This document shows positions 1-24,061 of a stretch of 64,000 nt of DNA, in pieces. A program made the translations under genes and the position numbers. The notes under the pieces were generated by a model. It ran no database searches, was not told the DNA's origin, and saw nothing but the letters and a program-made list of their open reading frames with translations. Numbering within the stretch: the stretch's first letter is position 1; every line of letters begins with the position of its first letter. The stretch covers positions 39,784-103,783 of the forward strand of contig JAGBAO010000011.1 in the NCBI GenBank assembly GCA_017938925.1. Direction: 5' to 3'. This DNA comes from Bacteroidales bacterium. Its GTDB lineage: Bacteria; Bacteroidota; Bacteroidia; Bacteroidales; UBA932.

Positions 1-900
1 TACTTTAAAAGGAAAGAGTTAAAACCGAATACCTGTGACAGTTGTAGAGCTGCGGTAAGATGGGTGCTTAGGTATCAGCCTTCTGCAAGAATTTCCGATA
101 TGTCGGAAGGTTTCATTGAAGGTCTTAAAGCCTATATGAAAAGGACCCATATGAAGAAGTGTGGAGAGGAGATGTCAGTCAATACCATAGCTATGTATTT
201 TCGTGCATTGAAGGCAATCTGTAACTACGCCATAACACTTGGCCAGTTGACTGAAAACCCGTTCAAGAAGCCGATCCCTACGGCACTTCGTCAGAAACGG
301 GCAATCCCATTGGACGAATGGTTGCGTTTTGTGCATTTTGTTCCGGAGGAAGGAAGTAGAATGGAGTTTGCGCATAAGTTTGCTTTGCTATCGTTTGCCA
401 TGAGTGGAGCAAATATGGCTGATATTCTAGCTCTGAAAAACCGGAATATATTAAAGGACAGGATTTCATTTACGCGTCAGAAAACAGAACGTGTTGACTC
501 TAATGTAGCCATTCCTATAGCAGATTCCACAAGGGAATTGATAGTCGGCAATGGCGGGGTGTTGAATCCGGATAAACCTAATGCTTATGTGTTCCCGTTT
601 TATAGAGCAGACATGTCTGAAAAGACCCTCAAGAATACGCGATCACGTATTTTGAAGAAAATCAACAAGGGTATTCATGAGATATGTGACTCTTTGGGCA
701 TGGAGCCATTTACGACATATAACATCAGGCATACTTATGTGTCTTTGATGATTTCTAAAGGTGCTACAGCAGAGCAGATGATGTCATTGCTCGGTCATAA
801 GAATGTGGAAACAACCAAGATATATTTCAACACGGTGACAAATCAAGTGTTGGATGTGGCATCTAATCTTATTGATGATGTCCTCGGACGTACCGAATGA
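1..900 (+). CDS. Tyrosine recombinase (integrase), 5' end outside window
   Basis: Site-specific DNA recombinase of the phage integrase family, expected to integrate or excise a mobile element. The reading frame is open from base 1, so the N-terminus lies to the left of the window; the GTG at 64 is probably not the true start. The N-terminal part is a SAM-like core-binding domain; the C-terminal catalytic domain shows the RHTYVS box, the LLGH motif and the nucleophile Tyr in IYFN about 25 residues before the end. The first catalytic Arg region reads SGANMADIL, with Asn where Arg is expected, and the HxxR box reads YNIRH. Such drift is common among Bacteroidetes integrases, so activity is likely but not certain. 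It is the left marker of the accessory region. Confidence 0.9.
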   Translation, partial: YFKRKELKPNTCDSCRAAVRWVLRYQPSARISDMSEGFIEGLKAYMKRTHMKKCGEEMSVNTIAMYFRALKAICNYAITLGQLTENPFKKPIPTALRQKRAIPLDEWLRFVHFVPEEGSRMEFAHKFALLSFAMSGANMADILALKNRNILKDRISFTRQKTERVDSNVAIPIADSTRELIVGNGGVLNPDKPNAYVFPFYRADMSEKTLKNTRSRILKKINKGIHEICDSLGMEPFTTYNIRHTYVSLMISKGATAEQMMSLLGHKNVETTKIYFNTVTNQVLDVASNLIDDVLGRTE

Positions 901-2212: not shown

Positions 2213-2237
2213 TTGTGGATCAGGATGGTGGTGAGTG

Positions 2238-2268
2238 TTGCTCGGAAAAGAGAAAAGACTTACTTTTG
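2238..2268 (+). promoter_or_regulatory. Promoter of the receptor kinase gene, giving a leaderless mRNA
   Basis: TTGC (2238-2241), 20 bases and ACTTTTG (2262-2268, within TACTTTTG) form a Bacteroidetes-type promoter with a weak upstream box. The expected transcript start is at or within a few bases of the ATG at 2273, so the message would have almost no leader. The divergent gene at 4256 has the same TTGC-N20-ACTTTTG arrangement. Confidence 0.5.
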
Positions 2269-2272
2269 CACC

Positions 2273-3700: not shown

Positions 3701-4256
3701 GCCCATTGCATTTTCCCATGGTATAACTTGCGATGCGTTTTCCCTCGTGTTCCAGATCATCCACCAGAAGGCACCTTCCCTGAATGAAACACCTGCATGA
3801 GAAAGTATCTCCCTTCACTATGCTCGCATTGACCACCTCGTCCACCTCAAAACGATAGTTCCCAAGATACTTCAGAGAACACTCCCTGTCAGGAAGCCAT
3901 GCGATATAAATCCTGTCTCCGACAGCGAGGTCGTCAGCCTTGATATGATGCTCCCCACAGGACAGCTCCGAATCCTTGATGCCCGACGAACTCAGATAGT
4001 CACAGAAGTCCTGAAAGTGCTTGTAGCCGATGGCTTTTGAGAGAATATTCAGAATGTCGTCAGAGACATGTTTATATTTTTTTGTTTCTACATATAACCG
4101 CCTGAACGTACTATCTGAAATCATATCTTTTGTCTTTTCAAATACAAACGAAGAGGCATCCGTAAAGTTCTTTGGAGTTCTTATCGGCGTTCCGAATGCT
4201 TTTTCAAATTTCAGCTTCAGAAGTGCAATGCGTGGTGAGTCAGATGGTATAGCCAT
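3678..4256 (-). CDS. Regulator-like protein with N-terminal helical domain
   Basis: A 192-residue protein, taken to start at the ATG at 4256 (MAIPSDSPRI) rather than ten codons upstream. The first 85 residues contain a pattern I know from many Bacteroidetes proteins (ISDSTFRRLY, then DILNILSKAIGYKHFQDFC), a small helical domain that resembles a DNA-binding or adaptor module. The C-terminal half (about 105-190) is beta-rich, with GDRIYIAWLPDR and GDTFSCRCFI. The gene is convergent with the kinase and overlaps its end by 23 bases, so transcription of one could interfere with the other. A similar promoter stands before both. It may regulate or partner the kinase; that link is inference from position only. 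Confidence 0.65.
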   Translation of the reverse strand: MAIPSDSPRIALLKLKFEKAFGTPIRTPKNFTDASSFVFEKTKDMISDSTFRRLYVETKKYKHVSDDILNILSKAIGYKHFQDFCDYLSSSGIKDSELSCGEHHIKADDLAVGDRIYIAWLPDRECSLKYLGNYRFEVDEVVNASIVKGDTFSCRCFIQGRCLLVDDLEHEGKRIASYTMGKCNGLTCVKRV

Positions 4257-4283
4257 GATAGATGCTTGTTTGAACGATGGGCA

Positions 4284-4314
4284 CAAAAGTGGTGATTTTT
4301 TATCTGATTAGCAA
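4284..4314 (-). promoter_or_regulatory. Promoter of the regulator-like gene
   Basis: On the minus strand TTGC (4311-4314), 20 bases and ACTTTTG (4284-4290) repeat the layout of the kinase promoter at 2238. The transcript would start near 4279, about 23 bases before the ATG at 4256. Confidence 0.4.
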
Positions 4315-4337: not shown

Positions 4338-4389
4338 AGAAGACCTAAAAAGACTTAGACGAAATTCATCAACCTTACCTACATTTGTG
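4338..4389 (+). repeat. Leader module copy A with TACATTTG promoter box
   Basis: This 52-bp stretch, opening with AGAAGACCTAAAAAGACTTAG and closing with TACATTTG, recurs with about five changes at 4837-4888, and its first 22 bases recur at 11651. The last 8 bases are a -7 promoter box; there is no upstream TTTG, so the AAAAAGACTTAG block may replace it. Downstream similarity to copy B continues in pieces to about 4500. Confidence 0.55.
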
Positions 4390-4518
4390 TTGACATATTA
4401 AAAAGTGTTCCGCAAGCGGATAACTCCACACTTTTCGTGTTTTCAACCTATGTAGTTGTTCTGCCTTGGAGTTGGGTGGACTAAAAGTTGTGCGCGACAC
4501 GAATCAGCGTTTCTTGTC

Positions 4519-4743
4519 ATGGCATTCGATGCAAAATTCAGGAATTTCGGGGTCATTAAGATTTCCGATGATTGTGCCAATGTCCGTCTTTATTGTGATA
4601 AAGTCAACCAAACTCCTATCTTTGTCGGTTCCAGTGGCGGTGGTGCAGCATCTGCGATGTGGGCTGGTGAAGCAGTGGTAGTCACGTTGAAAGATGGAAG
4701 AGTGCGCAGATATAGGGATTTCACTAACTGGGACTCGATTTAA
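4519..4743 (+). CDS. Small protein of unknown function, 74 aa
   Basis: A short, probably all-beta protein. The start is placed at the ATG at 4519 (MAFDAKFRNFGV), because the frame upstream lies in repeat-derived leader sequence; starts at 4456 or further are possible. The C-terminal part has a Gly/Ser turn (VGSSGGGAASAMW) followed by a beta-hairpin-like VVVTLKDGRVRRYRDF. I believe similar short proteins occur in Bacteroides mobile regions, but I cannot name a family. It is preceded by leader copy A and followed by copy B, so it sits as a cassette between two repeats at the head of the signalling operon. Confidence 0.5.
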   Translation: MAFDAKFRNFGVIKISDDCANVRLYCDKVNQTPIFVGSSGGGAASAMWAGEAVVVTLKDGRVRRYRDFTNWDSI

Positions 4744-5233
4744 TACGATTTATGACCTTTGTTGTGAACAAAGTGTTTGAAGATGGGCGGGAATTGGACA
4801 TTTTGTCTGATTCCCGCCCGATTTCGAATATACTTTACAAGACCCAAAAAGACTTAGGCGAAATTCATCAACCTTACCTACATTTGTGCAAGCAAATATT
4901 TGAGTATAAAGGGGCCTGGTTTTGAACTTATTTCTTTATATTTGCACTTGACATATTGAAAAGTGTTTCGTGCCTGAGTCGAAAACTGGTAATTTTTAAT
5001 TTCCGGGGCGAATACACTCTTATTCTCGTATGCTATATCGTGTTCTCGATATACGTTCGGGTGTGGAGTGCATATTCGGAAATAGGTTTACCAGGCCTCG
5101 ACTCAAATATGCGGACAACTCCACACTTTTCGTGTTTTATAACCACAAATATTATGCTGTTCGCTTGGGGTTGGGCAAACATGGTAGTTGTGCGCGTCCT
5201 AGGCATTCATCCAAGAAATTTAAACCCAAACTT
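4744..5233 (+). other. Gene-free leader region with copy B of the repeat
   Basis: This 490-base stretch holds copy B of the leader module (4837-4888) and then scattered blocks that match the sequence after copy A: TTGACATATT near 4949, and the block with AACTCCACACTTTTCGTGTT near 5117-5136. Two insertions (about 4889-4947 and 4977-5110) separate these blocks. An open frame in phase with the next gene covers 5030-5233, but it lies in this duplicated leader and I do not call it coding. Confidence 0.5.
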
Positions 5234-6325
5234 ATGAATAACCAATGGCTAATCATAGAACAAATCGGAGAGGATGTTGTTCTAAAAAAATGCTCACAGG
5301 AAGCAGAAGGGACTATTGTGGTTCCGGAAAATGTTACTCGCATTGAGAAATATGCATTTTGTCTATGCGAAAAGGTGACATCTGTATGTCTGCCAAAATT
5401 GATACCAGGAATATGTGCAGGTAGTTTTATGGGTAGTAGCCTGAAAACCTTGGTTGTAAATGGTGTCGAATTTGAACAATCCGAACTCCAAGGAGATGAG
5501 TATAGTAGTTATTATAATGAAAGACATCGTGACATCTGCAAGAAATATTTTCCTAAGAACGGAGAAGTAAATTCAAATATAGATACCGCATTCTGCGATA
5601 TATACAATAATTTTCTTTCTTTCAAAGAACATATTGTGTCAATCCTGCGCAATGAAGTCTATCGGATAAAAGCAGAAAATGCCTTCTTTTATTTAGAAGG
5701 ATTTTTGTATGAGCATTTTGCTGAGTTGTCTGAAGAAAACAAAGAACTTGCCTTATGTTTCTTAGAACACTCTAGTAAATGTTATATGGCAGAAGCTGCG
5801 TATGCCCATAATATTCTTGAAGGAAACATAAAACTAGAATCAGAAGAGCAAGGTTTGAATATCGCTAAGCAACGGTTGGCTTCTGCCGTATATAATGGGG
5901 CGTCATTGCTGAAGTTACGAAATATAGCTTGTCTTGCAGACTTGCTTCTGAACCACATGCCGGAATTGTCTCCACGTGAGCGTAAGATAAAAGCGGCTCA
6001 AGCATTGCTTAAGAGTTGGGATTCCTATGAGGGAAGAGTTACAAGTATGTCTTCAATGACCCTACCTCTGAATGGATTTGGTCCTAATCAGAGTAACGGA
6101 ACAACTTCCATTCAGGACATGTGTAAGGAGATAGGGATTGATGTAAAGGATATTGTGGGAGACGGAAATGAAGATTTAGAAGTATTAGATGAATGTCGTA
6201 GGTGGAATATCGCAAATGAACTTTGCGAGTCACTCGTGAATGATGAAGATTTACAGATGACACCGTTCATTGAATCCCTAATCGAATACTTTGTCTCTAT
6301 AGAAAGCAGAGAAAATCAACGGTAG
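5234..6325 (+). CDS. Leucine-rich (BspA-type) protein with Sel1-like helical part
   Basis: A 363-residue protein. The ATG at 5234 is chosen because the next gene starts with nearly the same codons (MNNQWLIIEQIGEDVV). Residues about 20-75 form one or two LRR_5/BspA-type repeats (TRIEKYAFCLCEKVTSV). The rest is helical: around residues 160-260 the alternation of Ala-rich helices (AEAAYAHNILEGN, LASAVYNGASLL) resembles Sel1/TPR-like repeats, a protein-protein binding scaffold. It lacks a signal peptide and should be cytoplasmic. It is the first gene of a + strand run that leads to two nuclease-like proteins and a kinase/phosphatase set. A sensor or adaptor role is my inference. Confidence 0.7.
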   Translation: MNNQWLIIEQIGEDVVLKKCSQEAEGTIVVPENVTRIEKYAFCLCEKVTSVCLPKLIPGICAGSFMGSSLKTLVVNGVEFEQSELQGDEYSSYYNERHRDICKKYFPKNGEVNSNIDTAFCDIYNNFLSFKEHIVSILRNEVYRIKAENAFFYLEGFLYEHFAELSEENKELALCFLEHSSKCYMAEAAYAHNILEGNIKLESEEQGLNIAKQRLASAVYNGASLLKLRNIACLADLLLNHMPELSPRERKIKAAQALLKSWDSYEGRVTSMSSMTLPLNGFGPNQSNGTTSIQDMCKEIGIDVKDIVGDGNEDLEVLDECRRWNIANELCESLVNDEDLQMTPFIESLIEYFVSIESRENQR

Positions 6326-6363
6326 CAACCAAGACATATTATAACCTTCTAAAACAGGAACTA

Positions 6364-8283
6364 ATGAATAACCAATGGCTAACCATAGAACAAATTGGAG
6401 AGGATGTTGTTCTAAAGAAGTGCTCGCAGGAAGCAGTGGGAGTAATAGAAATACCAGGAAATGTTACTCACATCGCAGATGGTGCATTCGGTGAATCAAA
6501 TGTCACTATTAAAAATTTACCGGAAGGATTAAAAGCAATAGGCAAAAATGCTTTTGCTAGTTGCTCGTTTTATAGGCCATTAGTCAACCTCCCTGAGTCT
6601 TTAGAAAAGATTGGTGAGGGTGCCTTCGCTCGGACTAATATAAAAGGCTTGTACATACCAGCATCAGTGACACAGATTGACGGAAGAATTTTACCGGGAA
6701 CATGTAAATTGGTAATCGTTGATGAGGATAATTCGATATATGATTCTAGAGACAATTGCAATGCAATTATCGAAACGGCAACAGGTAAACTGATTGAAGG
6801 ATGTGATTATGGTTATATTCCTAAAGGTGTGGAAGAAATCTGTGAATATGCGTTTGCTCATAGAACACTTATGAAAGCTGACTTGCCGCACACATTGGAA
6901 AAAATAGGACGCGAAGCCTTTGCAGAGGTAATTTGGCTTGTTAATACTGTCGTAGATGATGATATTGAAGTAGAAATAGGAATACCATCAAGTGTTAGAG
7001 AAATTGGCGACTGTGCGTTCAATACATTTGATGATTGGTATCATGGTGTAAAGATTATAATTGATGGCAAAACAGATATAAAATTAGGGTCTGAAATAAC
7101 TTGTTCTCCTGATGATGTTGAAGTTGACAATGAGGAGATAAAGTGGATCTTAGAAAATTACAATATCTATTACGACTACGAATTCCCTTTTGAAAAGATT
7201 GAGGAAATTCCTTCAAATTGTCTTAGATATTCAATCCACCAAGATGATACTTTTCAACATATTCCGGCTAACGTAAAACATATTTGCAAAGACGCATTTG
7301 AAGGTTGTACTCATCTAGAGGAAGTGGAAATTTATAATTCCGATGTTAAAATTGATTTGAGTGCATTCAAAGGTTGCTCGTCATTAGTCAGTATAGTAAT
7401 GCCGGATGGTGATGGGAACCTAATCGAATGGAATGCAGAAGAGAGGGATGCTGTGTTCTTTTATGCAAATGCATCTAAATTTATCGTTGACGGTAAACCT
7501 AATGTCCCAAATGGGGTTGAGATTATTCCAAATTCAGCATTTAAGAATTGTTTGGAACTAACAGAAGTGATTATTCCTGAGTCGGTGCATACAATAGAGG
7601 ATGAGGCGTTTAGCGGATGTGTAAATCTCAAGAAAATAATTGTACCAGAATCTGTATCCAGTGTGGCTAATAATGCGTTTGAAGGTTGTAATTCAGTTGT
7701 TGACATAATCGCCTCTGATGTTATTAAATGGAAAATTGCTCCCCATACTTTTGTTGTAAATGGTAAACTTAATGTTCCAGAAGGAGCTAATGCTATTCCA
7801 AATTCTGCATTTAAAGATTGCTTGGAACTGAATGAAGTTGCGATCCCAAAATCTGTGAGCACGATTGGATACGGAGCTTTTGAAGGATGTATAAATCTTC
7901 AAAAAATTACAATTGCTGAGAAGTATGGGGAGTCTTTGCAAACGCTTGAACGTCACAGGGTGCGTCGAGATGCATTTAAAGGATGTAGTTCCGTGACTGA
8001 GGTGGAAGTGCCATATATAATAAAATGGGAGCATTTTACCAAGTTCGTACTTCGTAAACATACCAAAGAGGGTAAATGTATAATTCCAGAGTATATTGTT
8101 CATAAAATAAGGACTATACGTTTGGAGGGCTGCAATGAAATTGAAGAACTTGAAATACCTAAAGGACTAAGTTCTGCGACAATTGTAGGTTGTCAAAATC
8201 TGAAAAAGGTTATTTGCCCAGAGGATGTTAGGCTATTAGTTAATGACTGTCCAAACTTTCAAGGAAGGATACAAAAGATATAA
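6364..8283 (+). CDS. Leucine-rich repeat (LRR_5/BspA-like) protein
   Basis: A 639-residue protein made largely of LRR_5 repeats: units of the form IPESVHTIEDEAFSGCVNL recur at least eight times between residues 25 and 620, giving a curved binding surface. There is no signal peptide, unlike the secreted BspA surface proteins, so it is likely cytoplasmic. The first 25 residues are almost identical to those of the upstream protein, also at DNA level, which points to duplication of the 5' end. The stop codon lies 2 bases before the DUF2130 gene, so the two are cotranscribed. It may recognise a protein trigger; binding partner unknown. Confidence 0.85.
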   Translation: MNNQWLTIEQIGEDVVLKKCSQEAVGVIEIPGNVTHIADGAFGESNVTIKNLPEGLKAIGKNAFASCSFYRPLVNLPESLEKIGEGAFARTNIKGLYIPASVTQIDGRILPGTCKLVIVDEDNSIYDSRDNCNAIIETATGKLIEGCDYGYIPKGVEEICEYAFAHRTLMKADLPHTLEKIGREAFAEVIWLVNTVVDDDIEVEIGIPSSVREIGDCAFNTFDDWYHGVKIIIDGKTDIKLGSEITCSPDDVEVDNEEIKWILENYNIYYDYEFPFEKIEEIPSNCLRYSIHQDDTFQHIPANVKHICKDAFEGCTHLEEVEIYNSDVKIDLSAFKGCSSLVSIVMPDGDGNLIEWNAEERDAVFFYANASKFIVDGKPNVPNGVEIIPNSAFKNCLELTEVIIPESVHTIEDEAFSGCVNLKKIIVPESVSSVANNAFEGCNSVVDIIASDVIKWKIAPHTFVVNGKLNVPEGANAIPNSAFKDCLELNEVAIPKSVSTIGYGAFEGCINLQKITIAEKYGESLQTLERHRVRRDAFKGCSSVTEVEVPYIIKWEHFTKFVLRKHTKEGKCIIPEYIVHKIRTIRLEGCNEIEELEIPKGLSSATIVGCQNLKKVICPEDVRLLVNDCPNFQGRIQKI

Positions 8284-8285
8284 TT

Positions 8286-9596
8286 ATGAAAGAACTGAAA
8301 TGTCCCAAGTGCGGGAGTGTATTTACGGTAGATGAGGCTGATTACGCGTCTATTGTAAGCCAGGTGAAGAATCAGGAGTTTGAGAACGAACTGAAGAAGA
8401 GGATGCAGGATGTCGATGCCTTGTATAAGGAGAAGATGAAGGTTGAAGAAGCTAAGGCTGAGGCTGAGTTCACGGATAAGTTAAGAGAAAAAGATGAGCA
8501 ACTTAAACAAAACGAGTTGGTCTTGGCGGAGTTAAGGAAGGATTTGGCAGGAATAGAAGAGAAGAAGGATGCGGAGAGGAGAGAGGCAATGGCCCAGAAG
8601 GAGATTGAGATTAAGGAGCTTCAGGGTCGTATAGATAATAGTGCGTCGGCAACAGAAAATGCTATCCTGAAAGTACGTGAGGAGATGTTGAAGCATGTTC
8701 AAGAAAAGGAGATGCGTATTGCCGAACTAGAGAAACAGCAGGAATTGTCATGCAAAGAGGCTGAACTTGAGAAGAATGCACTGGTGCAGAAGCATGATGC
8801 CAAGGTGAAGGATCTGGAGCTTGAGATAAGTCGCTATAAGGATTTGAAGGCAAGGTTGTCAACCAAGATGGTTGGTGAAACATTGGAGGAGCATTGTCGC
8901 GTTTTATATGAAACGACTCTTAGACCATTGATGCCGACAGCAACTTTTGGTAAAGATAACGATGCTTCAGACGGCACGAAAGGCGATTTTATTTTCAGGG
9001 ATTATGACAACGGGCTTGAGTATATTTCCATAATGTTTGAAATGAAGAACGAAATGGATGAAACAGGTGCAAAAACCAAAAATGAAAAGCACTTCCCTAA
9101 GTTGGATTCTGATAGAAAGAAAAAGAAATGCGAATATGCCGTGCTGGTGTCTTTGTTGGAATCAGATAGTGAACTATATAATAGCGGTATTGTAGATGTG
9201 TCTCATTGCTATCCTAAGATGTACGTTATTCGTCCTCAGTTCTTTATTCCACTTATTACTCTACTTGTAAACGCGTCAAAAAAGAGTATCCAGTATCAGA
9301 GGGAGTTGGTAGAGGCAAAGAGCAGATCTGTTGATATCAATAATTTTCAGAATCATCTGGATGAGTTTAAGCGGATATTCTCGGGGCATTACAAGAATGC
9401 CAGCAATAGGTTTCAGGAGGCGGTTAAAGGTATTGACAAGACAATAGGAGAACTGGAAAAAATCAAGAAGGCTCTTCTTTTGTCTGAAGATCACCTGAGA
9501 CTGGCCAATAAGAATGCCGAGGAGCTCAACCTAAAAGAGCTTACGGCTGATAGCCCTGGTTTGCGCGCTCAATGGGAAGAACTTCAGAAACAGTGA
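8286..9596 (+). CDS. DUF2130 family protein (coiled coil plus nuclease-like domain)
   Basis: A 436-residue DUF2130 protein. It opens with a short Cys pair (LKCPKCGSVF), then a long charged coiled coil (about residues 30-195), then the conserved DUF2130 core. This has GDFIFRD and IMFEMKNEMDE (about 232-257), a pattern that fits a PD-(D/E)xK nuclease fold: acidic residues followed by E-x-K. A second helical part ends the protein. The general design, coiled coil plus restriction-like nuclease, recalls RmuC. It ends 2 bases before the next nuclease-like gene, so a joint complex is likely. DNA substrate and activity are not known; the nuclease reading is from motif only. Confidence 0.85.
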   Translation: MKELKCPKCGSVFTVDEADYASIVSQVKNQEFENELKKRMQDVDALYKEKMKVEEAKAEAEFTDKLREKDEQLKQNELVLAELRKDLAGIEEKKDAERREAMAQKEIEIKELQGRIDNSASATENAILKVREEMLKHVQEKEMRIAELEKQQELSCKEAELEKNALVQKHDAKVKDLELEISRYKDLKARLSTKMVGETLEEHCRVLYETTLRPLMPTATFGKDNDASDGTKGDFIFRDYDNGLEYISIMFEMKNEMDETGAKTKNEKHFPKLDSDRKKKKCEYAVLVSLLESDSELYNSGIVDVSHCYPKMYVIRPQFFIPLITLLVNASKKSIQYQRELVEAKSRSVDINNFQNHLDEFKRIFSGHYKNASNRFQEAVKGIDKTIGELEKIKKALLLSEDHLRLANKNAEELNLKELTADSPGLRAQWEELQKQ

Positions 9597-9597
9597 G

Positions 9598-11652
9598 ATG
9601 AAGCAAAAACTATTTACCAAGTCTGCATTCAAGATCGCTTTGGAGTGCCCAAGGCGATTGTTTTATGCTTATGATAGTAATTTGTATGCCAATCAGGAAC
9701 TTAATGATGATTTCCTGAAATCTTTGGCAGAGGGTGGTTTTCAGGTGGGTGAACTGGCAAAGATTTATTGCGGAGTTACGTCTGAAACTGACATAAAGAC
9801 CCTTGATTATGATCAGGCAGTGGAAGAAACAAAACTCCTTTTTGAAAGGGAGAATGTCACTATTGCAGAGTCAGCCTTCAGGTATGGTAATCTTTTCGTT
9901 CGTGCTGATATTCTTGAAAAGAGAGGGAATGAAATTACCTTAATTGAGGTCAAGGCAAAGTCCTGGAATCCTCAGGAGGATAGTTTTGTTGATAAAAAGA
10001 ATAAGGTGCGCAGTGCCATCCGTCCTTATGTGTATGATGTTGCTTTTCAAAAGTATGTCATTGTCAAGGCTCTTCAGGAACTCTATCCGCAACAGGAGTT
10101 TGTCGTCAAGGCTCGTCTTATGATGGCTGATAAGTCGCGTATCGCTACGTTAGACGGATTGAATCAGCTGTTTCGTATCTGTAGGGCGGATAATGGCAGG
10201 ACTTTCATTGATGTAGATGCCCAGGCATGGGATATGGCTGGAGCAACCCCAGCAAACGATAGGGTTTTGCGTGCATTTGATGTCGATGAATTGTGCGACA
10301 GAATCATTTCTGGAGATGTGGCAGAACAGGGTGCACCTGATTGGATGGAGGGTATGACTTTCGAGCCTTTTGTGGCTAAGATGTCCGCTCTTTACTGCGA
10401 CAGAGTGAAGGCTTCGGATTTCAGGCTTGGTTCAAAGTGTTTCAGTTGTCCGTTCTACAAGACAGCATCAGATGCTCCCGAAAAGCGTGATGGTTACATG
10501 GAGTGCTGGAAAGAGAAGGCTCATTTCTCAGAACTGGATTTTACAAGACCTCTTTTGAAGGACCTTTCAGGACAATATATCCGTAAGGACAAGATGGTTG
10601 GGTCGGGGAAATATTTTATGGAGGAACTTACCACAGACGATATTCCTCGATCAACGGGGAAATGCCCTGATGGACTGGATCATCTCCAAAGAAAGTGGCT
10701 TCAGATTGCGGTGGCAACCCGGAATACAAGTCTGCAAAAAGGGTTCGGGAGTTTCTTGAATGATGGGATATATCTTGATACGGATGGTCTGAAGGATACA
10801 ATGGCGGAATGGAAGTTCCCTCTTCATTTCATAGACTTTGAGACGAGCGGTGTGGCTCTTCCTTTCTATAAAGGAATGAAACCATATGAACAGGTGGCAT
10901 TCCAGTTCTCTCATCATAAAGTGGAGTTGACCGAAGGGAACGGGTATAGCGTCAGTCATGCCAACCAGTATATCAACACGGAGAAGGGCTTCTTTCCAAA
11001 CTTTCAGTTTGTCCGCGAATTGAAGAATGCTCTTGAAGGTGATGAAGGAACGATTTTCCGCTACTCCAACCATGAAAATACCATCCTGTGCAAAATTCAT
11101 GAGCAGTTGGGTCAAAGTGAAGAGCCAGACAAAACAGAGCTTATGAGTTTCATAGAACATATAACCAAGGGAGGTGAACGTGAAATGGTGGACTTGGCGG
11201 ATGTGGTTCTAAAGTACTATTATCATCCGTTGATGAAGGGAAGTTATTCAATAAAGGTAGTACTGCCTTCTGTCCTCAATTCATCGGACTTCATCAAGGA
11301 TAAATATTCACGCCCAGTGTATGGTTCTGCTGATATGCCGAGTCTCAATCTGAAGGATAAGGTGTGGATCCAGATGGATTCCGATGGGATTACTGTCAAA
11401 AACCCGTACAAACTTCTTCCTCCGATTGCTTCGTATATAGATGTCTCGGAGGAAACCATTGAACGTATGGAGTTAGATGAAGGGGAAGCCATAGCAAATG
11501 GAGGCGCTGCGCTCACAGCTTATGCAAAGTTACAGTTCAGTGATTCCGTAATGACAGATGCACTTAAACAGGCTCTGCTTTGTTATTGCGAACTTGATAC
11601 ATTGGCAATGGTCTTCATCTGGGAGTATTTCTGGCATCAGACCCATTCTTAG
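9598..11652 (+). CDS. DUF2779 protein: Cas4-like nuclease fused to DEDD-type exonuclease-like domain
   Basis: A 684-residue protein. The N-terminal part resembles Cas4/RecB-type nucleases: KSAFKIALECPRRLFY at the start, Asp in FVRADILE (about 104) and E-x-K in LIEVKAKS (about 117-119). Four cysteines, C17, C281, C284 and C303, fit the iron-sulfur cluster of that family. The C-terminal DUF2779 domain begins at HFIDFETSG (about 413), with the D-x-E of DEDD exonucleases, and includes the typical PYEQVAFQFSHH and CYCELDTLAMV. Two nuclease activities in one chain are therefore plausible. It follows the DUF2130 gene at once and precedes a promoter with a strong palindrome. Confidence 0.88.
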   Translation: MKQKLFTKSAFKIALECPRRLFYAYDSNLYANQELNDDFLKSLAEGGFQVGELAKIYCGVTSETDIKTLDYDQAVEETKLLFERENVTIAESAFRYGNLFVRADILEKRGNEITLIEVKAKSWNPQEDSFVDKKNKVRSAIRPYVYDVAFQKYVIVKALQELYPQQEFVVKARLMMADKSRIATLDGLNQLFRICRADNGRTFIDVDAQAWDMAGATPANDRVLRAFDVDELCDRIISGDVAEQGAPDWMEGMTFEPFVAKMSALYCDRVKASDFRLGSKCFSCPFYKTASDAPEKRDGYMECWKEKAHFSELDFTRPLLKDLSGQYIRKDKMVGSGKYFMEELTTDDIPRSTGKCPDGLDHLQRKWLQIAVATRNTSLQKGFGSFLNDGIYLDTDGLKDTMAEWKFPLHFIDFETSGVALPFYKGMKPYEQVAFQFSHHKVELTEGNGYSVSHANQYINTEKGFFPNFQFVRELKNALEGDEGTIFRYSNHENTILCKIHEQLGQSEEPDKTELMSFIEHITKGGEREMVDLADVVLKYYYHPLMKGSYSIKVVLPSVLNSSDFIKDKYSRPVYGSADMPSLNLKDKVWIQMDSDGITVKNPYKLLPPIASYIDVSEETIERMELDEGEAIANGGAALTAYAKLQFSDSVMTDALKQALLCYCELDTLAMVFIWEYFWHQTHS

Positions 11653-11672
11653 AAGACCCAAAAAGACTTAGG
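11651..11672 (+). repeat. Leader module copy C
   Basis: AGAAGACCCAAAAAGACTTA plus two bases repeats the head of leader copies A (4338) and B (4837). It lies directly after the DUF2779 stop codon and just before the palindrome at 11676, marking a second internal promoter of the system. Confidence 0.55.
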
Positions 11673-11675
11673 ATG

Positions 11676-11722
11676 AATTTCCGGTTTATATCTACTTTCG
11701 CGGTGGATATAAACCGGAAATT
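11676..11722 (+). promoter_or_regulatory. 17-bp perfect palindrome around a promoter box
   Basis: AATTTCCGGTTTATATC (11676-11692) and its exact complement (11706-11722) flank a 13-base loop containing TACTTTCG, a near match to the TAnnTTTG box. The right arm ends 2 bases before the ATG of the kinase gene. As DNA it is a strong operator candidate that would cover the promoter; as RNA only the right arm would remain after initiation. Confidence 0.6.
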
Positions 11723-11724
11723 TT

Positions 11725-13002
11725 ATGAGTGAACTTAAGATCGGGACAATTGTAAAGTTGTCGACTGGCACGAGTGCCAAAGTTAAACAGGAACTGGGTA
11801 AGGGCGGACAGGGCGTTGTCTATCTTGTCGAGGTGTCTGGAAAGAAAATGGCCTTGAAGTGGTATCACAAGCACCCGGGAGAGGCCTTCCACAAAAATCT
11901 TCTGAACAATGTTCATGCAGGGGCTCCCGCATCGAACTTCATATGGCCACTTGCCGTCACAGAGGAGATGAACGGCTCGGTGGGCTATGTGATGGAACTG
12001 CGCCCAAAGGAGTACCAGGATATGAGCAAGTTCATCCTGACCCATGCGAAGTTTGCTGATGTGCATGCCCAGCTGAACGCCTGCCTTCAGATATGCACAG
12101 CCTTTCAGAAACTCCATATCCGTGGCCTGAGCTATCAGGATATGAACGATGGCAACTTCTTCATCAATCCCAAGACGGGCGATGTGCTCATCTGCGATAA
12201 CGATAACGTTGCACCCGACAAGACCAGCATGGGCATCCTCGGCAAAGCGGGATATATGGCACCGGAGGTGGTCGAAGGAACAACGATGCCGAACAGATAT
12301 ACGGACTATTATTCTCTTGCCGTATGCCTTTTCATCCTCATATATATGAACAGACCTTTCGAGGGAGCATGGCATCTTGCCTGCCCTTGCGATAACAATC
12401 CCGAGATGGCCAAAAAACTGTTCGGATTCGAGTCTGTCTTTATCATGGACCCTACAAACACAAAGAACAGACCTGTGCCGGGAGTTCACAACAATGTGAT
12501 ACGTCGATGGGGTGTGTATCCATCATTCCTTGGCAAGGCCTTCTGCAAGACATTCTCGTCAGGAGCAATCAAGGACCCGACCCAGAGGCTCATGGACAAG
12601 CAGTGGTACAACATTCTGCTCCAGATCCGTTCTATGTATGCAAGGTGTCCTCACTGCGGAAAGGAAACTTTCATAGATGTGATGGCCGGTAATCCGCACT
12701 GCATATTCTGTCAGAAGGGTATAGCCGTTCCGTCTCTGAAGGTGGGACGCTTCACAATCCCTCTTGTGGAAAAGCAGACCATACATTCATGTCTTATTTC
12801 TGATGAACAGGATAGGGATGCAAAGGCCGGAGAGGTTGTCATGAAAGGTGGTGCGACAGGCCTGAAGAATACTTCGGACACACCTTGGACCGCGATGCTT
12901 CCTGATGGTAGCGTGCGCGTCATAAACAAGGGCGAAGGTATGCCGGCAAAGCCAGGGCTGAAGGTGCGTTTCGGCCAGGGAGAAACAGGAGAATTTATTT
13001 AA
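11725..13002 (+). CDS. Protein kinase with C-terminal zinc ribbon (TerY-P type)
   Basis: A 425-residue soluble kinase. The glycine loop GKGGQGVVY (25-33), ATP lysine in ALKW (45), catalytic loop YQDMNDGN (Asp 139), DND in place of DFG (158-160) and APE (179-181) are all visible. A four-cysteine zinc ribbon follows (C308, C311, C326, C329) and then a beta-rich tail with a GLKN motif. This kinase-plus-ribbon form is the one found in TerY-P triads, where it is encoded with a vWA protein and a PP2C phosphatase, as here (the next two genes). The gene follows the palindrome promoter. Its substrate may be the vWA protein or a neighbour; not shown. Confidence 0.88.
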   Translation: MSELKIGTIVKLSTGTSAKVKQELGKGGQGVVYLVEVSGKKMALKWYHKHPGEAFHKNLLNNVHAGAPASNFIWPLAVTEEMNGSVGYVMELRPKEYQDMSKFILTHAKFADVHAQLNACLQICTAFQKLHIRGLSYQDMNDGNFFINPKTGDVLICDNDNVAPDKTSMGILGKAGYMAPEVVEGTTMPNRYTDYYSLAVCLFILIYMNRPFEGAWHLACPCDNNPEMAKKLFGFESVFIMDPTNTKNRPVPGVHNNVIRRWGVYPSFLGKAFCKTFSSGAIKDPTQRLMDKQWYNILLQIRSMYARCPHCGKETFIDVMAGNPHCIFCQKGIAVPSLKVGRFTIPLVEKQTIHSCLISDEQDRDAKAGEVVMKGGATGLKNTSDTPWTAMLPDGSVRVINKGEGMPAKPGLKVRFGQGETGEFI

Positions 13003-13026
13003 TAATAACTTTATAATCACATCATT

Positions 13027-13815
13027 ATGGAAAAGAACAATCCTTTTGAACTCGATGCAGTTCCAAGACGTGTAATGCCTCTGATCTTCTTGGTTGACAC
13101 TTCAGGAAGTATGGATGGAGCAAAGATTGCCTCGCTCAATGTGGCCGTACAGGAGTCCCTCAAGGACGTGGGAGAAATCTCGAAGAATAACAGCGATGCA
13201 CAGATCAAGGTGGCAGTCCTTGAGTTTTCAAGCGGAACTCAGTGGATGTATCCTCAGCCTATCGAATCGGAGTCCTTCAAATGGCAGGACCTTCAGGCAA
13301 GCGGTCTGACAAGCCTTGGAGCCGCTTACAGCGAATTGAACGAAAAACTGTCAAAGTCGCATGGATTCATGGCTGAGCCTACAGGTTCGAGGGCCCCTGC
13401 AATCATCCTTCTTACAGACGGTCAGCCTACCGATGACTACAAGCATCCGCTTGAGAAGCTCAAAGGAAATCCTTGGTTCAAGGCAGGAGTGAAGGTTGCC
13501 ATCGCAATCGGAGATGCCGATACCAATGTGAATATTCTTGCTGAGTTTACAGGCAACAAGGAGGCAGTGCTTACGGTTCATAATGTCGATCAGCTCAAGA
13601 AGATCATAAAGACAGTCAGCGTTACTGCGTCTCAGGTGGCATCTCAGTCGGCTTCAGTCGGTGTGTCTGGCAATGGCTCGACAACTCCTGCGGATGCTCA
13701 AAGTCAGGTGGTCAGCAGTGTTACCAATGCCGTTGATACGGATGACGCGTTGAAGAATGTGGATCAGGGAGACAGTACCGCAAACTCAGGCACAGACGAC
13801 TGGGAAAACTGGTAA
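13027..13815 (+). CDS. von Willebrand factor A domain protein (TerY-like)
   Basis: A 262-residue protein with a complete metal-ion-dependent adhesion site: DTSGSMDG (from residue 24), the Thr in LTSLGAA (about 97) and LTDGQPTDD (about 133). This is the pattern of TerY, the vWA protein of tellurite-resistance-linked stress systems. The tail after residue 200 is Ser/Thr-rich and acidic, ending in DDWENW, and could be the target of the kinase encoded just upstream. Spacing is 24 bases after the kinase and 12 before the phosphatase, so the three genes form one unit. No signal peptide. The role in metal-dependent complex assembly is known for the family only in outline. Confidence 0.88.
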   Translation: MEKNNPFELDAVPRRVMPLIFLVDTSGSMDGAKIASLNVAVQESLKDVGEISKNNSDAQIKVAVLEFSSGTQWMYPQPIESESFKWQDLQASGLTSLGAAYSELNEKLSKSHGFMAEPTGSRAPAIILLTDGQPTDDYKHPLEKLKGNPWFKAGVKVAIAIGDADTNVNILAEFTGNKEAVLTVHNVDQLKKIIKTVSVTASQVASQSASVGVSGNGSTTPADAQSQVVSSVTNAVDTDDALKNVDQGDSTANSGTDDWENW

Positions 13816-13827
13816 AATGTTGAGATT

Positions 13828-14835
13828 ATGGTGTTTAATACCAGCATATTAGGTGCAAGCCATGTTAAGGACAATAAACCGTGTCAGGACTATTCTGTTG
13901 CCTGGCAGTCGGAAGAGGATGGCGCGGTTGTCCTTGTGGTGTGCGATGGTCATGGAAGCGATACCTATGTCAGAAGTGATGTGGGTTCCCGTCTGGCAGG
14001 CGAGATAGCATTGGAAGCTGTGAAGAGGTTCATCCTTCCGGTCGGTGATATCAGGCCTGACTCTGACTGGATAGAGGGTGTGCAGGGTGCTGTGACTGCC
14101 CGTGAGAGCGATGTTCTGACCAGATATAGCGAAGCCCTGCCTAGGGCGGAAGAAGACATGACTGATACTGATTGGATGAGGTACCGTCAAAGGCTTGAGT
14201 TTCGCGGGCAGGTCAAAGGTATATACGAACAGGATGCCATATTTCAGGCTTTGTTTTCTTCGATATATGAGAAGTGGCTGGAAGCGATCCATCAGGATGC
14301 CAGGCAGAACCCTTTTACTGAAGAGGAACTCTCTCGTCTGGGCAGACATAAGTTGGTGAAGGCGTATGGAACAACGCTTATGACCTATGTACAGACAAAG
14401 GACTTCTGGTTTGCATTCCATATTGGTGACGGAAGGATGCTCTCTCTTGACGAAAATCAGGAGTGGAGACAGATAGTTCCATGGGACTGCAACTGCTTTC
14501 AGAATCAGACTACCTCACTGTGCAATACAGACCCCGTTCCGATGTTCCGTTATGCCTTTGATGGCACAGGCACATTCCCGAAGGCTGTGTTCTGTTGCAG
14601 TGACGGCATAGAGGACTCATACGGAGATTATGATGTTGCTCCAGAGCGCCTGCACAACTACTTTTCCGGTCTGCTGAATGTCTTTGTTCAGGAAGGTAAA
14701 GAAAGTACAATGTCTAAGCTGGAGGAGTTTCTGCCGAAACTAAGTGCAGTGGCAAGCAAGGATGATATGTCTATTGCGGGAGTTATCAATGAGGGAGATT
14801 ATCATCAAAACATAGATGAAGATGAACTTACATGA
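13828..14835 (+). CDS. PP2C-type protein phosphatase
   Basis: A 335-residue phosphatase of the PPM/PP2C family that would remove phosphates placed by the neighbouring kinase. Metal-binding motifs are visible: QDYS (Asp 21), VCDGHGS (Asp 40), CCSDGIEDS (about 258) and the late KDDMS. It forms the third member of the TerY-P triad with the zinc-ribbon kinase and vWA protein. A region between about residues 75 and 150 is longer than in minimal PP2C enzymes. Its end overlaps the next gene by 20 bases, so translation is probably coupled. Confidence 0.9.
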   Translation: MVFNTSILGASHVKDNKPCQDYSVAWQSEEDGAVVLVVCDGHGSDTYVRSDVGSRLAGEIALEAVKRFILPVGDIRPDSDWIEGVQGAVTARESDVLTRYSEALPRAEEDMTDTDWMRYRQRLEFRGQVKGIYEQDAIFQALFSSIYEKWLEAIHQDARQNPFTEEELSRLGRHKLVKAYGTTLMTYVQTKDFWFAFHIGDGRMLSLDENQEWRQIVPWDCNCFQNQTTSLCNTDPVPMFRYAFDGTGTFPKAVFCCSDGIEDSYGDYDVAPERLHNYFSGLLNVFVQEGKESTMSKLEEFLPKLSAVASKDDMSIAGVINEGDYHQNIDEDELT

Positions 14836-15493
14836 GACGATCAGGTTGCTGATAAAGGAGCAAGGGAAGAATGTAGTCGGTAGCCCTACCTTTATGGGAA
14901 TGCTGGATGATTATGGCGCATTTCGCGAAGAAGAGCCTGCGACCAAGACAATCGTCCGGGAACTTGTAAGGACAGGTCAGATGCAAAGGTTTATCGACTC
15001 CCCGAATAAGGGCAGAAATCTGCATTTTGAAATTCGGACTATTGTCTCAGAGACTGCACGTTCCGGTGGATTTCGGGAAGATCTTGTTTCCGATACATTA
15101 AAGAGGATAGCCCTTGGGATTGGCAAAATACAGAAGGAACTGGATTGGCCGACTCTCAATGAGGAAAAGCCGTCGGCAAAGGCTAGTCTTCAGCCAGCAG
15201 TAACAGCGGGGACGAAGATAAAAGCCAAGGCAGGACCTTCAATGTGGCAGAGGATTAAACGAGGAATATACTACTATGCTGATTTATGGTGCATGATTCC
15301 TGTCGTAATCTGTTTCATCGGTGCCGTAATAACGTTATTTCTGTCTGTCTTTGCGTTCTTCGCTGGCTCTCCGGAAGCAGGATATTGGGCAAAATGGCTT
15401 TTGGTGTGCGTTGTGACGGGCGTTTTTGTCTTTATAACATATTGTATAGTGGATAATCACGAGGAGTGGTTTGTTGATAAAAAAAGAAGATGA
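14816..15493 (+). CDS. Helical-domain membrane protein, 225 aa
   Basis: An N-terminal helical domain (about 1-110), with LHETIRLLIKEQGKNVVGS and MLDDYGAF followed by EPATKTIVRELV, resembles a small module I have seen at the N-terminus of several Bacteroidetes proteins, though I cannot name it. A linker rich in Ala and Lys (about 118-150) leads to two membrane segments (about 163-187 and 190-213) and a charged tail. The start at 14816 overlaps the phosphatase end; the in-frame ATG at 14822 is an alternative. It could tether the kinase/phosphatase system to the inner membrane. Function unknown. Confidence 0.7.
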   Translation: MKMNLHETIRLLIKEQGKNVVGSPTFMGMLDDYGAFREEEPATKTIVRELVRTGQMQRFIDSPNKGRNLHFEIRTIVSETARSGGFREDLVSDTLKRIALGIGKIQKELDWPTLNEEKPSAKASLQPAVTAGTKIKAKAGPSMWQRIKRGIYYYADLWCMIPVVICFIGAVITLFLSVFAFFAGSPEAGYWAKWLLVCVVTGVFVFITYCIVDNHEEWFVDKKRR

Positions 15494-15789
15494 TGACTAT
15501 CATAAAATTACTATCTTTATTGTTCAATATTGTGGGGTGGCTTGCATTGGATATATATCTGTGGACAGTCTCATGGTGCCCCGGAGTGGGCGGACTGCTG
15601 GGGCTTATAGGCTTCTTCGTCGGCTACTCTATCAGCGGAGGTATGACCGTCGCCCCTCGTGACTACTGGAGACTGCCCGATTATGAGGTGTTCAGAAAGA
15701 AAATGCGTTATGGCAACTCGATAGCCGGTGCAGTCACAGCAATATCAGCGTTTGTTTTATTTGTCATCAAGACTATTATTGAATCATGA
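15490..15789 (+). CDS. Small integral membrane protein, 99 aa
   Basis: The product has three hydrophobic segments: an N-terminal one (LLSLLFNIVGWLALDIYLW), a Gly-rich one (GVGGLLGLIGFFVGYSI) and a C-terminal one (AGAVTAISAFVLFVIKTII). It starts within the stop codon of the previous gene and ends within the start of the next, so all are translated from one message. No family is recognised. The position suggests a membrane partner of the preceding two-helix protein. Confidence 0.65.
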   Translation: MMTIIKLLSLLFNIVGWLALDIYLWTVSWCPGVGGLLGLIGFFVGYSISGGMTVAPRDYWRLPDYEVFRKKMRYGNSIAGAVTAISAFVLFVIKTIIES

Positions 15790-16175
15790 TCAGATTTATA
15801 CTGTTGCTTTGTGTCGTGATGTTGGCCTCATGCAACTGCCATATTAATGAAGAAGTGTCCGTAAAGGTCCATAAGGATTCCGTAAAGACAATCACTCTCG
15901 TGCATATCCTTTCATACCCCGATGAGCCCCTCGTTCGACTCTTGCAGGATGCCTCAAACAAGTCCGTATGCTATTCCTATATTGAGAAGGAAGGCTCGGA
16001 CTCGCTGATTCTTCTTCCTTCCTGTGGAGAATTTTTGGGCGTGTCCCATGATGATGGCCTGATAATCATGGACTCGTATTACTATGATGATAAAGGCAGG
16101 CATGGCGTTGTTCAGGGCTATACGTTTGACGGAGAAAAAGTATGCGAAATGAAGACAAAAATTAATGAGAAATGA
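15786..16175 (+). CDS. Lipoprotein of unknown function, 129 aa
   Basis: The N-terminus is a lipoprotein signal (hydrophobic FILLLCVVMLASC, with Cys 16 as the lipidated residue), so the mature protein is anchored facing the periplasm. The rest is about 110 residues of mixed beta structure with no known motif. It overlaps the genes on both sides by four bases. In an operon of mostly cytoplasmic signalling proteins a lipoprotein is notable and could report on the cell envelope. Confidence 0.65.
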   Translation: MIRFILLLCVVMLASCNCHINEEVSVKVHKDSVKTITLVHILSYPDEPLVRLLQDASNKSVCYSYIEKEGSDSLILLPSCGEFLGVSHDDGLIIMDSYYYDDKGRHGVVQGYTFDGEKVCEMKTKINEK

Positions 16176-16726
16176 AATCATATTTTCCTCATTATTACGA
16201 GTTCCATCAAGACGATTGGGAGACCTTTGAAGAACTCGCTAGGACCGTATCTGTTGATGTAAAGACAGGAAGAAAGACCGTTGAATTCAATCCTGAAAAG
16301 TTCAGACAGGAAGGTGATTTTATCATTTCCAATGACGAGGGTAGGCTGCATTTATGTTTTTCGGATGATGAGGTGGTTCGTGTCCCAGAGGGTGTAAAAG
16401 CGATTGCACCCAGTGCATTTCATAAGGATTTATGTCCGAATGTCAGGCACATAATTCTTTCAGATACCGTGGTGGGAATAGCACAGTACGCTATCTGTGG
16501 GTGTTCTGTGGAAGAACTGACGATTAATAACAAGTATATCTATATCAGCGACAGCGCTTTTGACTGGTGCTCCTCTTTACGGGTAATACATCACATCTCG
16601 GAGCGAGTCACGATACACGTTAAAGAAGATGAGGGTAGATGTGCCCGACCTGTAAGATTTGAAAGAATGGAGTCATCCGGAATAGAAGATGATAGCGATT
16701 TTGACCCTGATGACCTGCCTTTCTGA
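16172..16726 (+). CDS. LRR_5-type protein with SSB-like acidic C-terminal tip
   Basis: A 184-residue protein. Residues about 65-145 carry two to three BspA-type leucine-rich units (VRVPEGVKAIAPSAF, then DSAFDWCSSLRVI). The last residues are SDFDPDDLPF, very close to the tail with which bacterial single-stranded DNA-binding proteins recruit repair enzymes (in E. coli ending DFDDDIPF). The start overlaps the lipoprotein gene. An open frame of 105 codons follows in phase after the TGA. The protein may dock onto SSB-binding enzymes, or compete with SSB; this rests on the tail motif only. Confidence 0.7.
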   Translation: MKSYFPHYYEFHQDDWETFEELARTVSVDVKTGRKTVEFNPEKFRQEGDFIISNDEGRLHLCFSDDEVVRVPEGVKAIAPSAFHKDLCPNVRHIILSDTVVGIAQYAICGCSVEELTINNKYIYISDSAFDWCSSLRVIHHISERVTIHVKEDEGRCARPVRFERMESSGIEDDSDFDPDDLPF

Positions 16727-17044
16727 GAAGATTTCAAGAATTTTCTTGGAGACATTTTCGAGAAAAAGACCAGAAAAATCCTAAGAAAAGAATGCAAAAA
16801 AATCCGAGAAAAGAACGAGAAAAATATAGCAAAAAAGATTTTCAAACCGGGAGATGAAATTACCATTGAGGAGGTTAACGATGTTTTTCGTAAGGTAAAA
16901 GAAAACGGAAGACGATTCGCTATAAACGAGAACAGTGATATAAAAACAGAAGTTATAGACGGGCACCTAATTTTTGACACTTTGGATGATATGAAAAAAT
17001 ATTATGGTGGTTTATACACTATTGAGGAGGTGTTCAAATGGTAA
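16727..17044 (+). pseudogene. 105-codon open frame without a normal start, in phase after a TGA
   Basis: Directly after the TGA of the leucine-rich gene the same frame stays open for 105 codons to TAA at 17042-17044. No ATG, GTG or TTG occurs in phase until near the 3' end. The translation looks like real protein: a Lys-rich helix, then FKPGDEITIEEVNDVF, FAINENSDIKTEVIDGHL and a C-terminus YGGLYTIEEVFKW. It may be the tail of a longer gene cut by a nonsense mutation, a gene using a rare start such as ATT or ATC, or a readthrough extension. Its end overlaps the next gene's start by a few bases, as in the rest of the operon. Confidence 0.5.
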
Positions 17045-17487
17045 TGCTGCCATCACAGAAGAAAGATTATAAGATGAAAACAAATTGCTTAAAGTGCATT
17101 GAGATTGACCCTAAGATCATAGAAGAAAAGCTTAGGGCGGAATTTGGCCCATCATATCTGGAGCGCGTGAAACCTTCAGAAGATATTTCTCATATCAATA
17201 TTAAAGAAGGAGCAGACTCAATTTTTCCAAGCGACAAGTTTGATGTTTATGTAAGACGTGGAGATATATGCAATCCTCGTTTTCATGTCGCAAGTGATGG
17301 GTGGGATGTCGCATTCTTTATCAATAACGGGAAGGTACATAACATCTGCAAGCGGGGAGCCGATATGGGGGTTCTAAACAAGATGCGGGAGGATGCTATT
17401 AAGTGGCTACCTTGTCAGAATGCTTATGAGCCTGACAAAACCAATCGCAAAGTCATCGAAATCATGTGGGCGAGAATGCACGGGTAG
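17038..17487 (+). CDS. Small protein of unknown function, up to 149 aa
   Basis: The frame has ATG codons at 17038, 17044 and 17074; the last gives MKTNCLKCIEIDPKIIEEK and a 137-residue product, and the first overlaps the end of the preceding frame. The sequence is mixed alpha/beta, with a basic patch near VYVRRGDICNP and an aromatic stretch (DGWDVAFFINNGKVHNICKRG). No family is recognised and there is no signal peptide. It is the last gene of the + strand run and is followed by a terminator-like hairpin at 17630. Confidence 0.6.
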   Translation: MVMLPSQKKDYKMKTNCLKCIEIDPKIIEEKLRAEFGPSYLERVKPSEDISHINIKEGADSIFPSDKFDVYVRRGDICNPRFHVASDGWDVAFFINNGKVHNICKRGADMGVLNKMREDAIKWLPCQNAYEPDKTNRKVIEIMWARMHG

Positions 17488-24047: not shown

Positions 24048-24061
24048 GATTTTCAATGAAG

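Follow-up and report, generated by a model that had tools for sequence, protein, structure and literature searches.

A TerY-P triad with a putative adaptor domain on changeable partner proteins in a Bacteroidales tRNA-Met island

The stretch of DNA analysed here (hereafter the window) spans 64,000 nucleotides of a Bacteroidales bacterium (assembly GCA_017938925.1, contig JAGBAO010000011.1, positions 39,784 to 103,783) and carries an integrase-borne island of about 24.7 kb, in which a Ser/Thr kinase, a TerY-like vWA protein and a PP2C phosphatase are followed by two membrane proteins, a putative lipoprotein and a leucine-rich repeat protein. Comparison of sequences leads us to favour a reading in which these seven genes (KIN-VWA-PP2C-TM1-TM2-LIPO-LRRc, 11725-16726) form the functional unit, a phosphorylation switch of the TerY-P type with a changeable cargo tagged by an adaptor domain. 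Such a system would differ from known TerY-P systems in its adaptor-tagged, changeable cargo. The four genes ahead of the kinase, which encode two LRR_5 proteins and two nuclease-like proteins (LRRa-LRRb-DUF2130-DUF2779, 5234-11652), probably constitute a separate and exchangeable passenger block having the island and the strand in common with the triad, but not the mechanism. A first-pass annotation of the window had listed all of these genes in one row, from LRR_5, LRR_5, DUF2130 and DUF2779 through the triad to the two membrane proteins, the lipoprotein and a last LRR_5 gene; every one of them is present on the + strand, with Pfam support for the named families, LRRa scoring just below the cut-off.

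The window triad can be placed in the TerY-P family with good support. The kinase (11725-13002, + strand; Pfam Pkinase, 65.4 bits) joins its Ser/Thr kinase domain to a C-terminal four-cysteine zinc ribbon and a tail domain of about 90 amino acids (aa), and is followed on the same strand by the TerY-like vWA protein (13027-13815; Pfam VWA, 43.8 bits) and the PP2C phosphatase (13828-14835; Pfam PP2C_2, 118.9 bits). A scan with the kinase alignment, using one genome per species, returned 382 related loci, the best 80 of which (L013-L092) were kept with up to 10 kb of flank on each side. The active sites are intact: kinase residues K45, D139, N144 and D158 are conserved in 81 of 81 aligned sequences and the four ribbon cysteines in 79-81 of 81; the metal ion-dependent adhesion site (MIDAS) of the vWA domain is complete (DxSxS, T and D in 81-82 of 82); and the metal-site Asp positions of PP2C are kept in all 76 sequences. 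The three genes are contiguous on one strand, and a scripted gene map based on a greedy choice of open reading frames (ORFs) recovered this synteny in 74 of the 80 loci; five of the others are cut by contig ends, and in L039 the vWA and PP2C genes were lost to the overlap filter. NCBIfam and PADLOC matched only the kinase domain of the kinase, below the NCBIfam curated cut-off where one exists, and returned nothing decisive for the remaining proteins, while matches of the kinase tail to zinc fingers of the Protein Data Bank (PDB) lie mainly over the ribbon. The triad kinase is present in 4 of 299 genomes of the family and in 1 of 392 genomes sampled across the phylum, the latter being the window's own.

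From PP2C onward, the genes overlap at their ends. TM1 (14816-15493, + strand), which overlaps the end of PP2C, combines the adaptor domain (aa 5-104, encoded at 14828-15127; 79.7 bits with the adaptor profile) with two transmembrane (TM) helices predicted from hydropathy. TM2 (15490-15789, +), a small membrane protein, overlaps TM1 and lies beside it also in L014, L015 and L016. The putative lipoprotein (LIPO; 15786-16175, +), so labelled from a reading of its sequence, overlaps TM2, and LRRc (16172-16726, +), an LRR_5 protein of the BspA type (Pfam LRR_5, 39.6 bits), overlaps the lipoprotein gene in turn. Neither TM1, TM2 nor the lipoprotein has a Pfam match above cut-off. In the close relatives L014 and L015, the order triad-TM1-TM2-LIPO-LRRc is retained, lipoprotein and LRRc included, and the upstream block is different.

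The N-terminal domain of TM1, about 100 aa long, recurs in the partners of related triads. An iterated hidden Markov model (HMM), whose E-values in the loci refer to a small sequence set, detected it in 88 further genes of the loci examined, 84 of them within the 80 loci, and 55 of the 74 loci with a complete triad are positive. All 84 genes lie on the strand of the triad (84 + / 0 -), whereas other genes of 90 aa or more are divided 643 + / 245 - (p 9e-12); 73 follow the kinase and 11 precede it. In 35 of 64 loci the first gene to follow PP2C on the same strand is an adaptor gene, and in 48 of 74 one is found within the next three genes. The domain is typically N-terminal (74 of 90 copies start in the first 25 residues), and what follows it is diverse: among 39 adaptor proteins, C-terminal families comprise WG repeats (5), LRR_5 (4 of the 39 scanned, LRR_5 being a recurring companion), MORN (3), ankyrin (2) and Fib_succ_major (2), along with single matches to Sel1, FGE-sulfatase, FtsK, FKBP, PEGA, PIN, S1-like and Prim-Pol, this census covering the first 25 of 52 families listed. 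In genomes, the adaptor profile (E <= 1e-5) is found in 2 of the 299 from the family, taken here as one set with those scanned for the kinase, and both are among the four that carry the kinase; in the phylum it is found in 1 of 392, the window's own, which is also the only kinase genome there. No sampled family or phylum genome without the kinase gave a match.

The domain itself has no evident relatives. Pfam searches with 72 adaptor-domain rows (E <= 1) matched 46 families, none in more than two rows (the best 25 are listed, and the other 21 occur in at most one row each). No PHROGs match covers the domain in five adaptor proteins, the match of the L020 protein to phrog_7324, of unknown function, falling outside it. 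Three candidate relatives were discarded: the engineered protein 4rzp, which had the lowest PDB-profile E-value (8e-12), matches over 38 columns with no stretch passing alone and looks like an artefact of composition; the regulatory protein 6sbs gives a weak match (PDB-profile E 0.029); and TerB matches weakly in 2 of 39 full-length proteins (best 0.0023) and is not among the 25 listed of the 46 families found with the domain alone. Within the window, TM1 is the only one of 22 proteins to match the HMM, and no kinase, vWA or PP2C protein of any locus appears among the matches listed. No description of the domain turned up in the literature examined, where a nameless domain is unsearchable by name; it is seemingly undescribed, but the primary TerY-P papers may already mention it.

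The partners often differ between loci with nearly identical kinases. Taking the first adaptor protein downstream, the kinases of L046 and L053 are 98% identical, the adaptor domains 30% and the C-terminal parts 32%; the corresponding values are 91/19/25% for L037/L041 and 90/23/20% for L043/L049, and 94/76/40% for the window and L014. Other pairs are conserved, for example L045/L067 (94/85/79%). Several observations nevertheless weigh against an adaptor-tagged cargo. Over 611 pairs of loci with kinases at least 50% identical, mean identity is 0.27 for the domain and 0.25 for the C-terminal part, a slight difference, the domain being higher in 61% of pairs. Moreover, orthology is not assured in this comparison of first downstream adaptor genes, which therefore shows that the partner genes differ around a constant core, and does not show that C-terminal parts are swapped behind an unchanging domain. 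A detected adaptor is lacking in 19 of the 74 complete-triad loci (in five of these, less than 100 bp of sequence follows PP2C), and ten loci have an HSP70-like protein in place of, or besides, the adaptor. Two of the four kinase genomes of the family have no adaptor match at the threshold used, a weaker match being present in one of them (L011). The adaptor-positive genomes served in part as profile seeds, and only the absence from kinase-free genomes is independent. Finally, a looser BLAST cluster, which holds most adaptor proteins together with LRR proteins, counts 98 + / 5 - genes.

If the adaptor-tagged switch is real, its operation can be sketched. The adaptor domain would dock each cargo protein onto the triad, and the kinase/phosphatase pair would set the state of the cargo once the trigger arrives. 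In integrin-type vWA domains, acidic residues of the ligand bind the MIDAS metal. A single Asp is kept in 98% of the 90 adaptor-domain rows and the MIDAS of the triad is intact, which suggests, by analogy, a possible metal-bridged contact between the two. In the window, the cargo would consist of the two-helix TM1, TM2, the putative lipoprotein and LRRc, and would serve in the response to phage or another stress. With such a cargo, the output is likeliest to be exerted at the membrane, through permeability or envelope signalling. TerY-P is treated as a phosphorylation switch in the available parts of two sources, according to which one form is reported to act against T7-like phages (PMC7699616, PMC11090510). 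A reported antiphage member of the family (Gao et al. 2020, as cited in these sources) is consistent with the defence or stress role proposed in the first-pass annotation, but the DNA-degrading activity that was to be placed under triad control is unlikely. No target of TerY-P triads is named in the parts of the literature examined.

A different role for the same genes, namely a tellurite-type response of triad and cargo to metals or oxidants, and not defence, appears somewhat unlikely. It would fit the TerY_C-type protein found by the kinase in 34 of the 80 loci (43.9 bits for the member checked) and the TerD-type protein found in 4; like all partner counts in relatives given here (TerY_C, TerD, HSP70, Hxs and BREX), these represent BLAST clusters of which one member each was checked with an HMM. 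A metal-sensing interpretation of TerY-P, given in the part of PMC11090510 available, points the same way. In the window, neither TerY_C nor TerD was matched by any of the 20 proteins scanned with Pfam. The rarity and patchiness of the kinase (4 of 299 family genomes), its position here on an island and the variation of partner genes between close relatives all speak against a stress response, and defence would better account for the BREX genes that immediately precede the triad genes in 6 of the 80 loci.

It is less probable still, and in our judgement unlikely, that the adaptor domain merely travels with the operon as an oligomerization or membrane-placement module making no direct contact with the triad. 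The absence of Ser and Thr from the domain columns conserved at 50% or more would agree with such a module, as would the presence of at least one hydropathy-predicted TM segment in 36 of 89 adaptor proteins and the divergence of the domain, about as fast as that of the rest of the protein. However, the other 53 of the 89 have no predicted TM segment, a single domain precedes many unrelated C-terminal families, and its Asp is almost never replaced.

The block ahead of the kinase has borders of its own. LRRa (5234-6325, + strand) consists of a short LRR_5 N-terminus (27.2 bits, just under the cut-off of 27.7) and a further region, and its 5' DNA shares 78% identity with the 5' DNA of LRRb (6364-8283, +; Pfam LRR_5, 237 bits). 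DUF2130 (8286-9596, +; 261.8 bits) is a coiled-coil, PD-(D/E)xK-like nuclease with a GDFIF...FEMKNE motif kept across 24 sequences, and DUF2779 (9598-11652, +; 86.7 bits) a Cas4-like and DEDD-like nuclease in which D104...EVK, C281xxC284, C304, D413FET and a C-terminal D are kept across 9 sequences. These motif assignments are our own; they fit the labels given in the first-pass annotation ("coiled-coil nuclease-like" and "Cas4-like/DEDD"), and DUF2779 is grouped with 3'-5' exonucleases in the part of PMC3985635 available. LRRb, DUF2130 and DUF2779 are separated by gaps of 1-2 bp. DUF2779 stops at 11652 and the kinase starts at 11725, and the 72 bp in between hold a 19-bp repeat and a hairpin. 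The repeat, AAGACCYAAAAAGACTTAG, occurs on the + strand at 4340-4358, at 4839-4857, where it forms the left border of the LRR/nuclease block, and at 11653-11671, where it forms the right border; these are the only three copies in the genome at up to 2 mismatches, and all of them border the slot. The hairpin (11675-11723, +) comprises 22 pairs, three of them G-U, ends at the kinase start codon and has a predicted energy of -29.5 kcal/mol (z -5.73; none of 200 shuffles as stable); it could act as a terminator or in translational control. The genes do not, then, make up one seamless operon as proposed in the first-pass annotation: gaps are tight from LRRb to DUF2779 and genes overlap from PP2C to LRRc, but the repeat and hairpin separate DUF2779 from the kinase.

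The content of this slot differs between close relatives. In L013, whose kinase is 95% identical, two ATPase genes (AAA_14/DUF4143) are surrounded by the same repeat element, at 6749, 8449 and 9929, and LRRa, LRRb, DUF2130 and DUF2779 have no match, whereas L014 (kinase 94% identical) retains an LRR gene and, of DUF2779, a remnant of 75 aa. The repeat borders and these different contents indicate that the nuclease genes occupy an exchangeable slot as passengers, and exchange may proceed by homologous recombination between the repeats. The repeat was also considered as a general cassette site and rejected, in view of its three genomic copies and the lack of an exact match in viral contigs.

The first-pass annotation had coupled nucleases and triad, and the neighbourhood check run here does not sustain that coupling. 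Among the 80 triad-kinase loci, DUF2130 lies near one, on the opposite strand (L045), and DUF2779 near one, as the remnant of L014. Of 249 family genomes, 6 contain DUF2779 and 20 DUF2130; the kinase and DUF2779 are found together only in the window's genome. Both DUF2130 and DUF2779 are present in two family genomes and adjacent in both, the second being L107, where 17 kb of sequence contain no triad. In L106, an LRR_5-like gene adjoins DUF2779, and at the 3 of 10 plasmid places of DUF2779 that were examined, no annotated DUF2130 or triad lies within 5-6 kb. The LRR-DUF2130-DUF2779 set, whose motifs look intact, may be a module in its own right. Given a block in a repeat-bounded slot that has other contents in a close relative, together with these co-occurrence counts, a triad-controlled DNA-degrading system is unlikely. 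More specifically, we regard it as highly improbable that the triad switches on DUF2130 and DUF2779 as nuclease effectors, the LRR_5 proteins being the sensors: although the two nuclease genes share its strand, DUF2779 ends only 72 bp from the kinase, their nuclease motifs are intact and the LRR gene and DUF2779 remnant at the same place in L014 indicate that the block predates the split between the window and L014, each nuclease accompanies just one of the 80 triads, DUF2779 shares a family genome with the kinase only here, L107 has the pair but no triad, and L013 fills the same slot with other genes.

Similarities with described systems bear on the triad and its adaptor-tagged cargo. TerY-P was reportedly defined by Anantharaman et al. 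in 2012. The window shares with that triad the contiguous MIDAS vWA, PP2C and Ser/Thr kinase with C-terminal zinc ribbon, and its relatives carry TerY_C and TerD; unlike it, the window has adaptor-domain cargo downstream, which varies between close relatives, and no McrBC partner was found. The kinase of the Gao-type antiphage TerY-P ends in an OB-fold; the window kinase has the zinc ribbon and a tail of about 90 aa that may or may not adopt this fold. The triad is of the same kind as that of CoCoNuT types II and III-A, in which it is an accessory of a defence operon according to the available part of PMC11090510. None of the 20 island proteins scanned with Pfam, a set that leaves out a few small ORFs, matched a CoCoNuT partner (McrB-type GTPase, CnuH or CnuE; McrB, helicase, HEPN), nor were the BREX proteins PglZ, PglX and BrxC/BrxL found among the window proteins scanned. 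Effector-associated domain (EAD) systems, in which a small non-enzymatic domain is fused to variable effectors beside a core system (as set out in the available part of PMC7159879), resemble the window in that its adaptor domain is likewise fused to variable partners next to a core. EADs, however, occur in both core and effector, whereas the adaptor HMM matched no triad protein among the matches listed. Pfam, which we assume to hold EAD models, returned no EAD model in more than one or two of the 72 adaptor-domain rows. Finally, the third GAP1-N2 theme of actinobacteria, with its zinc-ribbon kinase bearing a beta-rich domain, PP2C and stand-alone vWA (same part of PMC7159879), has a kinase/PP2C/vWA set similar to the window triad; the Pfam matches of the island proteins include no GAP1 component, although no search was aimed at GAP1.

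Other partners of related triads were also observed. The HSP70-like protein occurs in 10 of the 80 loci (L017, L018, L020, L027, L028, L030-L034); in L028 and L030-L032 it comes directly after PP2C and is followed, on a reading of the sequences, by a zinc-ribbon protein, a protein of 1300-1400 aa and a small J-domain-like protein. BrxL is encoded directly upstream of the TerY_C-kinase genes in 6 of the 80 loci (one being a contig-end fragment) and PglZ in 5 (L035, L036, L040, L065, L071, L084), and the IMG/VR locus L007 has genes that read as pglX-, pglZ- and brxL-like ahead of the kinase. TerY occurs 0 times in the main text of a BREX survey (PMC12839542), the part of it consulted. Genes for ribosomally synthesized and post-translationally modified peptides (RiPPs) of the His-Xaa-Ser type lie near triads, with HxsA/B/D in 14 of 80 loci and HxsC in 13 (L037, L043, L045, L046, L047, L050, L052, L053, L055, L064, L067, L069, L078, L085). 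All 14 loci carry the adaptor, and the members scanned scored 564 bits (HxsB), 330 (HxsC), 70 (HxsD) and 56 (HxsA, below cut-off).

The island is bordered as the first-pass annotation had anticipated when it placed these genes between recombinases. It lies at tRNA-Met, and its right attachment repeat is the 44-bp 3' end of that tRNA gene (24061-24104; tRNA call), identical to L012:17211-17254; the left copy begins 573 bp before the first position of the window, and the tyrosine integrase lies just inside it. The 3' part of the integrase gene is at 64-900 (+ strand; Pfam Phage_integrase), its start lying left of the window (411 aa in L012), and a serine recombinase/resolvase follows at 1369-2037 (-; Pfam Resolvase, 117 bits). 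A second Ser/Thr kinase, kin0 (2213-3700, +), is present upstream also in L013, L014 and L016; its match to PglW covers the kinase domain only and is below cut-off. The gene convergent with it (3678-4286, -) has no Pfam match and is present in the same three loci. Relatives of both lie beside DUF2779 at L104:5514-7174, in a genome in which the triad kinase was not found. A small conserved protein with a DGxVRRYxDF-like end and no Pfam match is encoded at 4516-4740, at L013:6849-7067 and at L016:8671-8913, its position being in the repeat-bounded slot or ahead of a vWA gene. Further to the right, the protein encoded at 21768-23540 (590 aa) lacks a Pfam match above cut-off and has motifs that, by eye, we presume to be polymerase-like. 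Just outside the left border, at L012:10949-15773, lie two long genes in which motifs like those of N6-methylases can be made out by eye. A viral source was dismissed, the IMG/VR matches being few (2 contigs for the kinase, 1 for PP2C and 0 for DUF2779) in a search with single-protein queries that can detect close relatives only.

Beyond the window, and more tentatively, the TerY-P triads of Bacteroidota and of some Bacillota and Fibrobacterota metagenome-assembled genomes (loci L039, L051, L066, L080, L019 and L022) could constitute a plug-in platform, onto which the adaptor would dock interchangeable sensors or effectors and also entire modules, the His-Xaa-Ser RiPP cassette among them, possibly with its Asp completing the MIDAS. 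The triad neighbourhood may likewise provide a context for the His-Xaa-Ser RiPP system. For the island itself, attention shifts to the membrane protein and away from the two nucleases, and the LRR/nuclease block illustrates how a repeat-bounded slot can produce a misleading "operon". Docking could be probed at a single residue, by way of the conserved Asp and the vWA MIDAS. TerY-P triads are known defence and stress modules, and if a domain marks the proteins that work with them, their candidate targets could be listed directly. If true, the plug-in platform would be a phosphorylation-based counterpart of immune assembly of the death-domain or EAD type.

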